A stretch of DNA of 64,000 nt. Source: Synechococcus sp. PCC 7335 (GTDB lineage Bacteria > Cyanobacteriota > Cyanobacteriia > Phormidesmidales > Phormidesmidaceae). The number at the start of each line of letters is the position of its first letter. The stretch's first letter is position 1. Below the pieces are notes generated by a model. The model did no database searches and was not told the DNA's origin. It saw only the letters and a program-made list of their open reading frames with translations. The translations under genes and the position numbers were made by a program. The stretch is from the NCBI RefSeq assembly GCF_000155595.1, contig NZ_DS989904.1:2481290-2545289 (forward strand). The letters run 5' to 3'. Of this stretch, positions 31,551-38,414 are shown piece by piece.

Positions 31551-32714
31551 TTACCCCATAGGTCCTGCTAGAATCGTTCTAGAAATTGCATCCATAATCT
31601 TTTTGCCATCTTCTTGAGCAAGCTCAGCGTACCACTGCTCTGTTTTCTCAGGTTCTTTCGCATGTGTCATATTAGATCGCTTCCTAGCGCCTAAGACAAT
31701 TCCTGCGACTCTCTCCTTTCGGCTCGCTTCGTAGCGCATTAGCGCATCTTCTACGCTCAAGTTAGTTGTTAACAAACAGTTGGCCAGTGCCCAAGCATCT
31801 TCCATTGCCTGACAGCCGCCTTGACCTAGATCTGGTGAGGTGCTGTGAGCTGCATCACCAATGAGCGCCACCCGACCTTTGACGAGTGCCTCCAAAGGTT
31901 CGATATCGTGAATTTCCACTCGGTTGGTCTTGTCAGGATCAAGTTGTTGAATCAGATTTTGTACGGGTTCAGCCCAGCCTTCGAAGTGTTTGGATAGTTC
32001 TTGTTTAAAGCGGTTGGGCTCTCTTTCAGTCCCCTTTGGTAAGGGCACATCAAAAAAGAAATAGAAGCGATCGCTCCCTACTGGCATTACAGAAGCCCGC
32101 TGACCGTTGCCTACATAGATATCCCAGCTATCGAGCGGGGCGAGGTCCTCACTGGCAGGGACTAGCCCGTTCCAGTTTACATAGCCCACATATCGCCGTT
32201 CAGACGGATGGCCCAATACGTGGGTGCGAATAATAGAATGGGTGCCATCCGCACCGACCACAATGTCAGCGATCGCTTTGTGCCCATCTTCAAAGATAGC
32301 CGTTGCCCCGTCAGCGGTTTGTTCTACTGCAACGCAGCGTTTGTTTAGCTGTACATTCTCTTCACCCACTGCTTTTAGCAGCATCATCTGCAAGTCTGTT
32401 CTAGAGACTGGGTAAGGTGGCTGACCTACCTCTTCTATCAACGGCGATAGACTAAACCTGGTGAGCAATTTGCCCGATTTGGCATAGTAAGCCATCTGCT
32501 TCATTGGTCCCCCTATCCGGGAAATCTCTGGCCCTAGCCCCAGCCGATTGAGTACCTTGACTCCGTTGGACCACAGCGAGATTCCAGCGCCTGCTGGACG
32601 CAATTCTTTGACCCGATCATAGATTTCTACCTCATAGCCAGCCCTTTGCATTGCGATCGCACTTGTTAACCCCCCCATGCCTGCACCGACCACAACAACC
32701 TTCAGATTTTCCAT
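31551..32714 (-). CDS. hpxO: FAD-dependent urate hydroxylase (HpxO type)
   Basis: This flavoprotein monooxygenase hydroxylates urate to 5-hydroxyisourate using NAD(P)H, in place of the cofactor-free uricase. The 387-residue product has the FAD-binding GAGMGG (10-15), VGADGTHS and GDAAHSTSPDLGQGG. The arginine and tyrosine that define HpxO among related hydroxylases (R204 and Y216 in Klebsiella) line up with R206 (NGQRASVMPVG) and Y218 (DRFYFFF). The neighbouring 5-hydroxyisourate hydrolase makes the assignment strong. Confidence 0.93.
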   Translation of the reverse strand: MENLKVVVVGAGMGGLTSAIAMQRAGYEVEIYDRVKELRPAGAGISLWSNGVKVLNRLGLGPEISRIGGPMKQMAYYAKSGKLLTRFSLSPLIEEVGQPPYPVSRTDLQMMLLKAVGEENVQLNKRCVAVEQTADGATAIFEDGHKAIADIVVGADGTHSIIRTHVLGHPSERRYVGYVNWNGLVPASEDLAPLDSWDIYVGNGQRASVMPVGSDRFYFFFDVPLPKGTEREPNRFKQELSKHFEGWAEPVQNLIQQLDPDKTNRVEIHDIEPLEALVKGRVALIGDAAHSTSPDLGQGGCQAMEDAWALANCLLTTNLSVEDALMRYEASRKERVAGIVLGARKRSNMTHAKEPEKTEQWYAELAQEDGKKIMDAISRTILAGPMG

Positions 32715-32870
32715 ATGAAAATATCAGACTCCGTAAAGTAAAAAGAAGTAAACAGACTGCAATGTTTGTACTGTATTTTAATTATCTTGAATGAGAGCGG
32801 ATAGATTGTCCGCATGCATAGATACCTAAAGTAAGCTAATTTTACGTGAGCTAATTTTTGCAAGGTGATC

Positions 32871-33077
32871 ATGGAAGAGAATAAAGCAATCGCTGAACAA
32901 CTAAATCCAGCAGACGAGCAGCCTAAGACAGAAGTTACGCTCACAGACGAGCAGCTAGAAGAGGTGGCAGGCGGCGGTAGCCATAAACAGATTGAAGAGC
33001 ATTTTGAAGAAGACCAAAACGCGGCAGTTCCCGGTAATACTACTATCGATAGGGGACCTGAGCCACAGGTGATTTAG
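32871..33077 (+). CDS. Small double-glycine-leader peptide (putative exported peptide/RiPP-like precursor)
   Basis: This 68-residue acidic peptide has LTDEQLEEVAGGG (24-36), the classic leader of peptides cut after Gly-Gly by C39-peptidase ABC transporters. The part after the cut (about 33 residues, GSHKQIEEHFEEDQ onward) has no Cys and ends DRGPEPQVI, so it is not a typical lantibiotic core. The ATG at 32871 has an AAGG site five bases upstream; a GTG at 32865 is also in frame. It is divergent from the urate hydroxylase. No maturation enzyme or transporter gene is nearby. Confidence 0.75.
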   Translation: MEENKAIAEQLNPADEQPKTEVTLTDEQLEEVAGGGSHKQIEEHFEEDQNAAVPGNTTIDRGPEPQVI

Positions 33078-33331
33078 TTCTTTTCAGGCGTTTGGTAGAG
33101 CGGTGCATGCGTTTTTTGTACTTCATTTTCTCTAACGGCAGATAAAACTGCTCTTTGCGAAGGCAATCAGCACCGTTACTTCCCTATTTCTTCTGCAGCA
33201 TTATGTATCTTCTGTCACGTTTCGGTTTTGCGTTTTCCTCATAATGGTCCTGTAGTCGGCGCTTTACCTAATTCATTTTGCTGAGCGAATGCACTAGGTA
33301 GATTAGCCTGGGAAAGCAGGAAAGGTATCTA

Positions 33332-34744
33332 ATGAGCCAACCTAACAGATTTGTCGAAACTCCAGATGAGACTGTCGCTGATTTGCCACCCGCACCCGTA
33401 ATTGCAGTCCCAACAGACTTAATCTACGGCTTAGAAGATAGACCGCCGCTTAGGGAGGCAATCTTTGCCGCCGTTCAGCACGTTTTAGCCAGCTTTATTG
33501 GTATCATCACACCCTCTCTAATCATCGGGGGCGCTCTGGACCTACCCCCAGAAGATAGAGCCTACATCATTAGTATGTCTCTATTTATCTCAGGCATTGC
33601 CACCTTTATTCAGGCAAAGAAGATCGGACCTGTTGGCTCTGGTTTGCTGAGTATTCAAGGAACGAGCTTTGCTTTTATCGGACCGATTATCGGCGCTGGG
33701 CTAGCGGCAACAGCAGGGGGGGCAACGCCGACCGAAGCTCTAGGACTCATCTTTGGACTGTGCTTTGTCGGCGCGTTTATTGAAATGATCTTCAGTCAGT
33801 TCTTAGAGGTTATTAGCCGAATTATTACGCCGCTAGTCACTGGCACAGTGGTCATGCTGATCGGTTTAACGCTGACTAACGCTGGCATATTAGCTATGGG
33901 CGGCGGCGCACTAGCTAAGAACAATGAGACGTTTGGCAGCGCTCAGAATATCTTTCTCTCTTTGTTTGTGCTCGCTATTATCCTTATTCTTAACAGTAGT
34001 AGCAACACTTTTTTGCGGATGGCTTCTATCGCCATTGGTTTGATTGTTGGCTACATTCTTGGCATCTTCTTAGGCATTGTTGATCTTAGTAGCCTAGGAT
34101 CTCTATCTTTGTTTGCGCTACCTCAGCCTTTTCGCTATGGCTTTGGATTTGACTTTGCCGCCTTTATTCCATTCGCTTTTCTCTATTTGATCACTACGAT
34201 TGAATCGATTGGTGATTTGACAGCTACCTCTGTAGTAACGGGACAGCCCATCAAGGGAAAGGTTTACTTCAATCGAATTCGTGGCGGTGTGCTAGGCGAT
34301 GGGATTAACTCTGCGATCGCAGGTGCATTCAACTGCTTTCCTAACACCACCTTTAGTCAAAACAACGGCGTCATTCAGCTCACGGGCATCGGCAGCCGCT
34401 ACGTTGGCTACTTCATCGCAGCTATTTTTGCTTTGTTAGGTTTGTTCCCAATTGTCGGCGGCGTGTTACAGGCGATTCCGCAGCCTGTGCTAGGCGGTGC
34501 CACAATTTTGATGTTTGGCAGCGTAGCCGCAGCCGGAATGAAAATCATCTCTACGATTGAGCTAGGCAGACGAGAGACTTTAATTCTGGCGACTTCTCTT
34601 GGTCTAGGGCTAGGCGTAACCTTTGATCCAGACTTTCTAGTGGGTCTGCCGCCCTTGGCGCAAAATATCTTTGCTTCTGGCATCTCAACCGGTGGAATTT
34701 GCGCCCTGGTGCTCAATATTCTTCTACCTGGTGAGCGTCGATAA
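33332..34744 (+). CDS. NCS2-family purine permease (xanthine/urate type)
   Basis: This is a 470-residue integral membrane transporter of the nucleobase-ascorbate (NCS2) family with about 12-14 helices. Key motifs are QHVLASFIGIITPSLI, the substrate loop QGTSFAFIGP, TTIESIGDLTATS, and the signature QNNGVIQLTGIGSRYVG (Q-N-x-G-x4-T-G). Its position between the urate-breaking genes and an M20 ureido-hydrolase suggests a substrate of xanthine or urate rather than uracil. An AGGAAAGG site precedes the ATG. Confidence 0.9.
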   Translation: MSQPNRFVETPDETVADLPPAPVIAVPTDLIYGLEDRPPLREAIFAAVQHVLASFIGIITPSLIIGGALDLPPEDRAYIISMSLFISGIATFIQAKKIGPVGSGLLSIQGTSFAFIGPIIGAGLAATAGGATPTEALGLIFGLCFVGAFIEMIFSQFLEVISRIITPLVTGTVVMLIGLTLTNAGILAMGGGALAKNNETFGSAQNIFLSLFVLAIILILNSSSNTFLRMASIAIGLIVGYILGIFLGIVDLSSLGSLSLFALPQPFRYGFGFDFAAFIPFAFLYLITTIESIGDLTATSVVTGQPIKGKVYFNRIRGGVLGDGINSAIAGAFNCFPNTTFSQNNGVIQLTGIGSRYVGYFIAAIFALLGLFPIVGGVLQAIPQPVLGGATILMFGSVAAAGMKIISTIELGRRETLILATSLGLGLGVTFDPDFLVGLPPLAQNIFASGISTGGICALVLNILLPGERR

Positions 34745-36209: not shown

Positions 36210-38414
36210 ATGACGGTAGCTGTTTCTATCCCCAATTTCTGTGAAGGCATCCAACATTTCGGATCTTCCACCCCTGATTTTGAGCAATATGGAAAAACAG
36301 CGGTGATCGCCCCCGATCAGCAGGCGATCGCCTCCCCTACAGATCCTGCTGCCGTTTACCAAACCCGCTTAGCTGCCGATGCTCTGCGCTATCTGACACT
36401 GCACACCACCGCTAGCAAGCAGTCTGGTCACCCTGGTGGCTTTGCCAGCATCGCCGATGTGATTGCTTCACTGATCATGTTGGGCTACAAAAACCTAATC
36501 ACCGAAGTCGGTCACCATGCCCCTGGCTTCTACAGCACCGTTTTTCTAGATACGTCTTTAGAACAAATGGGGATTAAGACCGTTCAGCAAATGGGCGATC
36601 GCTTTCGAGAAACTCACGGCTTGCTCGGTCACCTCTCCGGTCAGATTCCGGGGTTGCTCAGTCCGGCAGGTCCACTTGGTCAGGGTCAGCACTTCGCGAT
36701 GGCTGCGGCCAAACTTCATCCCGATCAGCTCTTTCCAGTCACTATTGGAGATGGAGGCTTAGGTGAACCTTACATTATGAGCAGCTTTGGCCATTTCAAC
36801 ACCATCTATCCAAATATCACGAACTACCTACCAATCCTAGTTTGGAACGGCTTTTCCCAAGAGCACCACAGCATTGTCTCGACCTACACAAACGAGCAGA
36901 TGATTGCCTTTTGGGAAGGAAATGGCTTTGCCAAAGTCATCCTAGTTGATGCTAAAGCGTACGATGATGCCAACCAAGAGGGTGCTTATGTAGATAGCAC
37001 CAACTTTTCTGACAAGCAGCGCACCGTCTTTACCCAAGCGATTCTAGAAGCTACGGACGCAGCGGCGAAGTCGGCGCTAGGCGGTACCCAAACCGTTTTG
37101 ATCGTAAAGCAGCTAAAAGGGGCAGGCGTTCACAAAAGAGGCTCACAGTCTCACAACCTGTACGCTGGTGATAGCTTGGACAAAGATTATATCGTCAGTG
37201 CTTTGAAAGCAAGAGCGCTGCCCCCTGAGGGCTGGGCACTAGTTAGAGAGAACTTCTCTCGCTCTCATGGTGGACCTGCCGCTAAAACTGCTGTCACTGA
37301 ATCTGAGCTGCCGCTATCTGATTTAGGCTCGCTTCCACTGAGTGAATTTGATCTAGGAGAGGATAACAAGCAGGTTGCTACGACAGCGATGGGCACCTTG
37401 GTTGCCCATGTTGGTCAACAAGATCCAAACTTTGTTGTTACTAACGCTGATGGTAACGCGGCTTCTGGTATCAACAATATTAACCAGGCGCTGAAGATTA
37501 TTCATCCGACAACAGACGACACTTATTTTCAGGGGCCAAAGGGTCAGGTTTACGAGCCGCTCAGTGAAGACGCCTGCGCTGGGCTAGCGGCAGCTCAGGC
37601 TTTGATGGGTGCCCGTAGCCTGTGGTGTTCTTACGAATCTTTTGCAATCAACGGCCTACCGATTTGGCAGACAACAACTCAGGCAATGGCCGAATTGCGT
37701 AGACCAACGCCGTCTACGATTTGCTTGTTTACTGCTGGCTCATTAGAGCAAGGACGCAACGGCTGGACTCATCAACGGCCAGAGATCGAGAATTACTTTG
37801 CAGCAATGATGAAGAATGGAAATATCTTTCCGCTATTTCCGATTGATGCCAACAGCATTCAGGTTTGCTATGACTGGGCTGTGACAACTAAGAACAAAGG
37901 CATTCCTATTACCGCTAGCAAATCTCCTTTACCCATTCGCACCACCTTTGATCAAACTCGCACTGCCTTAGAAAAAGGTGCAATTGAGCTACAAGAAACA
38001 CCCGGAGAAAGAACAGTTGTCTTTGGCGTGGTTGGCGATATGATGCTAATTCCTGTTTTAGAAGCCGTAACAGCATTAAACGAACGCGGCATTGGCAGTA
38101 AAGTCATCAGCATTGTCAACCCAAGAAGGCTGTATCGCCCTAGCGATGTCGCTTGGGAGAGCTGTGCTCAGGCTGATGGAGGTTTTTTGAGCGATGCAGA
38201 GTTTGAAGAACTGTTTGACGGGGATGCACTGATTGGCGTAACTGGCGGATCGAGCGCGATGGTAGAGCCGCTCATGCTCAGAAGCAACGCACCACGTGAC
38301 GTATTCTCTTGGAAGCGCGGAGAGACGGCTGCGAGTGCCCGTCAGCTCTTTTCCCTAAATGGTCTAACGGCGAATGCTCTAGCTCAACGAGCACAAGCTC
38401 TCTTGGAGGCTTAG
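36210..38414 (+). CDS. Transketolase/phosphoketolase-superfamily TPP enzyme
   Basis: This 734-residue enzyme has transketolase-type sites: SGHPGG (72-77), GHHAPG (101-106), GPLGQGQ (154-160) and the TPP/Mg motif GDGG (180-183). The segment NYLPILVWNGFSQEHH recalls phosphoketolase, and a pyrimidine-binding second domain and C-terminal domain follow. It sits between transketolase (about 670) and phosphoketolase (about 800) in length, and the phosphoketolase GDGEAETG is changed to GDGGLGEP. The exact reaction is unknown. It is followed three bases later by a four-carbon-acid kinase. An AAGGA site precedes the ATG. Confidence 0.8.
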   Translation: MTVAVSIPNFCEGIQHFGSSTPDFEQYGKTAVIAPDQQAIASPTDPAAVYQTRLAADALRYLTLHTTASKQSGHPGGFASIADVIASLIMLGYKNLITEVGHHAPGFYSTVFLDTSLEQMGIKTVQQMGDRFRETHGLLGHLSGQIPGLLSPAGPLGQGQHFAMAAAKLHPDQLFPVTIGDGGLGEPYIMSSFGHFNTIYPNITNYLPILVWNGFSQEHHSIVSTYTNEQMIAFWEGNGFAKVILVDAKAYDDANQEGAYVDSTNFSDKQRTVFTQAILEATDAAAKSALGGTQTVLIVKQLKGAGVHKRGSQSHNLYAGDSLDKDYIVSALKARALPPEGWALVRENFSRSHGGPAAKTAVTESELPLSDLGSLPLSEFDLGEDNKQVATTAMGTLVAHVGQQDPNFVVTNADGNAASGINNINQALKIIHPTTDDTYFQGPKGQVYEPLSEDACAGLAAAQALMGARSLWCSYESFAINGLPIWQTTTQAMAELRRPTPSTICLFTAGSLEQGRNGWTHQRPEIENYFAAMMKNGNIFPLFPIDANSIQVCYDWAVTTKNKGIPITASKSPLPIRTTFDQTRTALEKGAIELQETPGERTVVFGVVGDMMLIPVLEAVTALNERGIGSKVISIVNPRRLYRPSDVAWESCAQADGGFLSDAEFEELFDGDALIGVTGGSSAMVEPLMLRSNAPRDVFSWKRGETAASARQLFSLNGLTANALAQRAQALLEA

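Follow-up and report, generated by a model that had tools for sequence, protein, structure and literature searches.

The 64,000-nucleotide stretch of Synechococcus sp. PCC 7335 analyzed here (the window) carries, in the divergent spacer between the genes for the urate hydroxylase HpxO and a xanthine-type permease, a gene for a 68-residue peptide that is probably an unmodified double-glycine precursor exported in trans. The gene has the coding statistics of a translated frame, its leader matches those of other double-glycine peptides, the same genome holds exporter genes, and the leaders of many sister peptides are linked to NHLM genes in relatives. Works marked "in part" below are cited from the portions of them that were available.

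Precursor gene, leader, and purine neighborhood

The precursor consists of the leader MEENKAIAEQLNPADEQPKTEVTLTDEQLEEVAGG followed by the core GSHKQIEEHFEEDQNAAVPGNTTIDRGPEPQVI (Table 1); an alternative GTG start at 32865 would make it 2 residues longer. Reading of the frame and its composition confirmed what the first-pass annotation had described, namely, a 68-residue open reading frame with a double-glycine leader and a Cys-free, acidic core. Under a codon model trained on 15 window genes, the gene scored a log-odds of 0.413 bits per codon, higher than 99 of 100 same-length in-frame pieces (themselves cut from those same training genes) and higher than 200 of 200 off-frame pieces; it looks coding. 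Searches of one open literature library, judged by their listings, turned up none that names the peptide.

Table 1. Coordinates and model matches of the peptide gene, its neighbors, the exporter locus, and the larger repeat proteins
Feature	Position	Strand	Basis or remark
Double-glycine precursor peptide gene, 68 aa plus stop	32871..33077	+	ATG at 32871
Likely ribosome-binding site, AAGG	32862..32865	+	5 bases 5' of the ATG; read from the sequence
Leader, residues 1-35	32871..32975	+	L24 (-12), L29 (-7), V32 (-4), G34-G35
Predicted exported core, residues 36-68, 33 aa	32976..33074	+	
Segment without blastn match at this locus of G002, holding the peptide gene	32748..33202		
FAD-dependent urate hydroxylase HpxO, divergent neighbor	31551..32714	-	NF033623, 632.9 bits (cut-off 500)
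NCS2-family xanthine-type permease, downstream neighbor	33332..34744	+	TIGR03173, 435.4 bits (cut-off 414.15)
C39 ABC transporter of L015			TIGR03796, 1102.5 bits (cut-off 853.3)
Second ABC transporter of L015			TIGR03797, 989.4 bits (cut-off 709.4)
Twin cNMP-binding protein of L015			TIGR03896, 233.6 bits (cut-off 161.05)
Short HlyD of L015	L015:7208-7930		TIGR03794, 105.6 bits (below cut-off 156.2)
Larger repeat proteins, own genome	L086:2920-3396; L087:3501-3977; L088:2911-3333		
Larger repeat proteins, relatives	L064, L065, L076, L082		

The leader ends in LTDEQLEEVAGG. An HMM built from the leaders of nine other peptides, with the window peptide left out, gave it 17.5 bits, a score reached by 0 of 20,000 shuffles (best, 8.9 bits), and a leader regex, composed after the peptide had been seen, matched once in the six frames of the window and in 0 of 60 base-shuffled windows. 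The leader determinants of the C39 peptidase LahT150 are hydrophobic residues at -4, -7, and -12, plus GG (PMC6363468, in part). V-4, L-7, L-12, and GG of the window peptide agree with these determinants, as in the leader of a double-glycine (C39) substrate; at position -8 it carries Gln in place of the Glu of the ComA consensus given in the same source, which counts against export. Two curated models matched the peptide below their cut-offs: NF038167 (CTB family bacteriocin) at 22.8 bits (E 7.4e-5; cut-off 32) and TIGR03793 (NHLP leader) at 16.8 bits (E 0.0046; cut-off 50.9), the latter over profile positions 47-77 of 77 only. Modeled alone, the peptide showed a helix at residues 26-34, over the leader end (mean pLDDT 65, pTM 0.22), a model that is given no weight here. 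In the DNA, 31 bases of the leader are 90% identical to the leader of a sister gene at C1:2713634-2713664.

The whole peptide was confined to its own genome both among 63 genomes of the order (1 of 63, E up to 0.01) and among 386 genomes sampled across the phylum (1 of 386, E up to 0.02); a pattern scan of genome and viral contig collections found it nowhere else, nor did searches of plasmid and phage collections. Relatives of the core were likewise absent from these 63 and 386 genomes, from the genome, viral, phage, and plasmid collections, and from the same spacer of four relatives. When matches in 58 relatives were admitted up to E 0.1, they came from five genomes, one of them its own; in two of the other four (G002 and G037) they were sister-type double-glycine peptides, and in two (G048 and G049) they were stretches of larger proteins. 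Homologues with the same split of leader and core, the absence of which the first-pass annotation had named as a refutation, were recovered for the leader and the split, both common to other peptides, and not for the core.

Other neighbors of the peptide gene encode a LysR-type regulator (29924), a hydroxyisourate hydrolase (31184), and an allantoate-amidohydrolase-like amidase (34832), and since neighboring genes are those of purine breakdown, the earlier label "purine island" is a fair name. The gene does diverge from that of HpxO, as had been described, with hpxO starting at 32714 on the minus strand, 156 bases away. The promoter region that the two were said to share found no support in a sigma-70-type scan of 32650-33400 (0 sites, 1.0 expected). 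NtcA-type sites (GTA-N8-TAC) were tried and set aside, numbering 8 in the window against 8.4 expected; the spacer next to the peptide contained no such site. The link of the peptide to purines is positional only.

The spacer itself varies among relatives. In 31 examined loci with a relative of the permease, both genes occurred within the DNA examined in 10 and were divergent in 5 of these, with start-to-start distances between HpxO and permease of 618 bases in the window (L020), 401 in L022, 290 in L028, 163 in L029, and 2412 in L090, the last belonging to genome G002, which is the closest of the relatives found and has a 96% identical permease. Searches of this spacer in the four relatives (L022, L028, L029, and L090) revealed no double-glycine leader; a looser pattern allowing GS gave one match in L028, on the other strand, whose sequence (MVASYLDILSGS) is by eye not leader-like. 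The DNA in common with G002 ends at window position 32747 and resumes at 33203, so that the peptide gene lies inside a segment with no match there. Elsewhere in its own genome, this segment has two short matches; the first falls in the leader of a sister and the second within a long frame that is unrelated. In place of the peptide gene, G002 has a large gene between hpxO and the permease gene (L090:14118-16058), which we take to encode an SLH-domain porin. Elsewhere in the window, a 734-aa protein (36210-38414) has a partial phosphoketolase match (best, 91.5 bits; cut-off 777) and may be a different thiamine-diphosphate enzyme.

Exporter and sister peptides in the same genome

Searched genome-wide, the Pfam C39 model (E up to 0.001) matched two places, both outside the window, which upholds the earlier statement that the window has no C39 peptidase; NHLM parts were not found in it either, a point against export of the peptide. 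One place is an NHLM cassette at locus L015 (C1 2.877-2.879 Mb, about 0.36 Mb from the peptide gene; Table 1). The C39 domain of its transporter (L015:4816-7206, minus strand) could be aligned with LahT150 (6mpz) at E 1e-38, and Cys, His, and Asp, presumably the catalytic residues, fall in register, so the genome that encodes the peptide also encodes a C39 exporter with all three. The presence of this NHLM C39 export locus supports the first-pass suggestion of an exported peptide, which had been made to depend on a C39-type exporter being present in the genome. The other place was rejected as a second C39 exporter: it is a long-type protein of 1017 aa (C1 3.02 Mb) with a C39 score of 28 bits (Pfam cut-off 22), and when it is aligned, weakly (E 0.12), with PCAT1, the catalytic positions contain no Cys or His. 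The PDB chain of PCAT1 itself carries Ala in place of the catalytic Cys. Further exporters could have been missed because the genome is 95.25% complete. Short HlyD proteins, of about 200-240 aa against a model of 421 positions, occur in six loci (L015, L092, L094, L097, L098, and L099); the best stretch of the one in the PCC 7335 genome covers model positions 1-55 only, and therefore the periplasmic hairpin may be absent.

The peptide had been called an orphan, which holds locally; genome-wide it does not, as four peptides of the leader type are known, one of them beside the exporter. As the sole query against its own genome, the window peptide returned itself and weak matches at E 0.054, 0.199, and 2.52, the first two being sister peptides and the third not. 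NF038167 picked out four places, all below cut-off (the window peptide, those two sisters, and one more), and leader alignment A2 recovered the four at E < 1e-11, with further matches at E 1.35 and 9.07 in long frames; since the four are themselves rows of A2, the latter search shows no more than the lack of an obvious fifth member. One sister (L015:9461-9637) lies 2.3 kb from the C39 transporter gene, and the other two, at C1 2.7136 and 3.597 Mb, are away from exporter genes. Neither around these two nor in the window was there an NHLM transporter, HlyD, or twin cNMP-binding gene, the exception near the distant sisters being a generic ABC ATPase match in L016 (26-27% identity). Nif11-type proteins gave five matches in the genome.

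The cores of two of the three sisters consist of a repeat that is 18 or 20 residues long (SVDDVQDTRLEHLDNQTK and similar), and that of the third ends in GHGHGHGHHH. The core end of the sister at 3.597 Mb (L017:7297-7590), KKKKFFGFGHGHGHGHHH, is a possible metal-binding tail. Beside this sister is a response regulator (L017:8081-8710) that is 48% identical to one beside the exporter-linked peptide, a resemblance in sequence that hints at common control.

A scan with nine sister peptides found 11 loci, spread over seven genomes (Phormidesmis, Leptolyngbya, Leptolyngbyaceae, Adonisia, and Leptothoe). A short HlyD gene was present at 6 of the 11, in six different genomes; one further locus, at a contig end, had a response regulator; and four (L101, L105, L107, and L108) had no HlyD, cNMP-binding, or regulator gene in the flanking DNA examined, which counts against the export reading. 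For a second repeat type (VDFDQLRRENLDKD and alike), a twin cNMP-binding gene lay within about 1.5 kb at 7 of 9 places, these being the places given a locus (L063 and L085 counted as one), with at least 4 further G012/G022 matches left out. From these counts, the leader tends to accompany an NHLM exporter, and distant precursors recur. Two single frames (L063:660-944 and L077:1483-1791) contain two tandem double-glycine leaders, each followed by VDFDQLRRENLDKD-type repeats, an arrangement suggestive of a single precursor with two cleavages.

Larger proteins that start, by eye, with a Sec-type signal peptide are likewise made of the sister-peptide repeat (KSVDDVQDTRLEHLDNQT; Table 1). An HMM of ten double-glycine cores gave those of the PCC 7335 genome 238.6 (L086), 250.6 (L087), and 206.0 bits (L088), the best of 2000 shuffles each being 12.9, 9.9, and 9.7 bits, respectively. 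In a Pfam scan, L086 passed one cut-off, that of DUF5388 (27.9 vs 26.1 bits, over 36 residues), and L087 passed none. A single repeat module thus seems to leave the cell by both a double-glycine and a Sec-like route, and this common repeat may merit more attention than the window peptide itself.

Fate of the core and competing explanations

The core is acidic and hydrophilic (net charge -5, pI 4.48, GRAVY -1.11) and contains 0 Cys, one Ser, and two Thr, and the 33-mer would have a mass of about 3644 Da; because the site reads GGG, the cut could fall one Gly later. It does not show the build of the 18-residue repeat that marks the RLEHLDNQ-repeat double-glycine peptides. A degenerate copy of the sister repeat was plausible by eye (HKQIEEH vs HKTRLEH) but was not borne out by shuffles: an HMM of ten sister cores gave the window core -0.2 bits, which 423 of 5000 shuffles equaled or exceeded, and the corresponding Smith-Waterman figure was 852 of 3000.

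For export in trans, the 35-residue leader would form a short helix and in this shape dock on the C39 peptidase of the NHLM transporter, whose gene is ~0.36 Mb away; cleavage behind GG would follow, and the acidic core of 33 residues would then leave the cytoplasm. This exporter, encoded elsewhere in the genome, is apparently able to cut the leader, and therefore the peptide is probably cut and secreted; we infer its recognition, cleavage, and export, as well as its lack of modification. As to what the core might do outside the cell, we can only guess at signaling, a place at the surface or in the matrix (as for the EbfG proteins), or competition.

The same leader could introduce a modified RiPP or a narrow-spectrum bacteriocin whose modifying enzyme is encoded elsewhere in the genome. 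NHLP and Nif11 precursors can be encoded at a distance from the genes for their modification and export (PMC2887384, in part), and the weak leader matches to the NHLP (E 0.0046) and CTB bacteriocin (E 7.4e-5) models point the same way, but a core that is acidic, hydrophilic (GRAVY -1.11), free of Cys, and endowed with one Ser and two Thr, in a genome with 0 matches in a LANC_like search, makes such a product rather improbable. The peptide does not have the features of a lanthipeptide precursor, and lanthionine modification is unlikely because the core has no Cys and the genome no LANC_like gene.

The frame is intact and its codon statistics are strong, the ribosome-binding site is plausible, and V-4, L-7, L-12, and GG are all kept in the leader, which argues against an unexported or decaying stray precursor, that is, a sister leader copied by recombination into the urate/permease spacer and now functionless. 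We consider this unlikely, even though the 31 leader bases with 90% identity to sister DNA are what recombination would leave, no orthologue was found in the genomes searched, and the segment is unmatched at this locus of the nearest relative. Shortness and the lack of an orthologue of the whole peptide would suit a chance open reading frame as well; the codon statistics and the comparisons of leader HMM with shuffles and of regex with shuffled windows make that extremely improbable. It would be a long shot to suppose a scattered double-glycine set with one NHLM exporter and separate local controls, in which the window peptide is a urate- or purine-induced nitrogen-status signal or a lineage-specific surface peptide. 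Export in trans of an unmodified precursor is our preferred reading; if exported, the window peptide adds to the small secreted cyanobacterial peptides without known function. Whether a single C39 exporter handles cores with nothing in common could be tested cleanly on this case.

Comparison with known export systems

Wang, Fewer, and Sivonen sought precursors within 20 kb of clusters in 2011 (PMC3140520, in part); a survey of that type would miss three of the four precursors known here for one leader type, which are more than 20 kb away. Like the group V clusters of that work, L015 has a short-type C39 transporter, an additional ABC transporter, a bimodular CAP_ED protein, and HlyD; unlike in those clusters, the window peptide lies outside the exporter cluster. 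Its leader region aligns with those of the CTB family bacteriocins (NF038167) and the NHLP leader family (TIGR03793), whereas its scores, unlike those of their members, are below the curated cut-offs.

Being small and of the double-glycine kind, the window peptide can be likened, by description, to EbfG1-4 of Synechococcus elongatus, the efficient secretion of which needs the Cys of the C39 transporter PteB and the mature parts of which have no homology to proteins of other cyanobacteria (PMC4997328, in part). Unlike the window peptide gene, the ebfG genes lie together, have gene numbers next to that of the transporter gene, and function in the formation of biofilms (PMC4997328, in part). HetC of Nostoc PCC 7120 is a C39 exporter with a substrate possibly encoded elsewhere in the genome, as here, and differs in being another type of transporter, in having its own cNMP-binding domain, and in its role in heterocyst differentiation (PMC10986499, in part). 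Because distant double-glycine precursors have been reported (PMC2887384, in part), this kind of gene is already known, and on our best reading the window peptide is an ordinary kind of gene in cyanobacteria.
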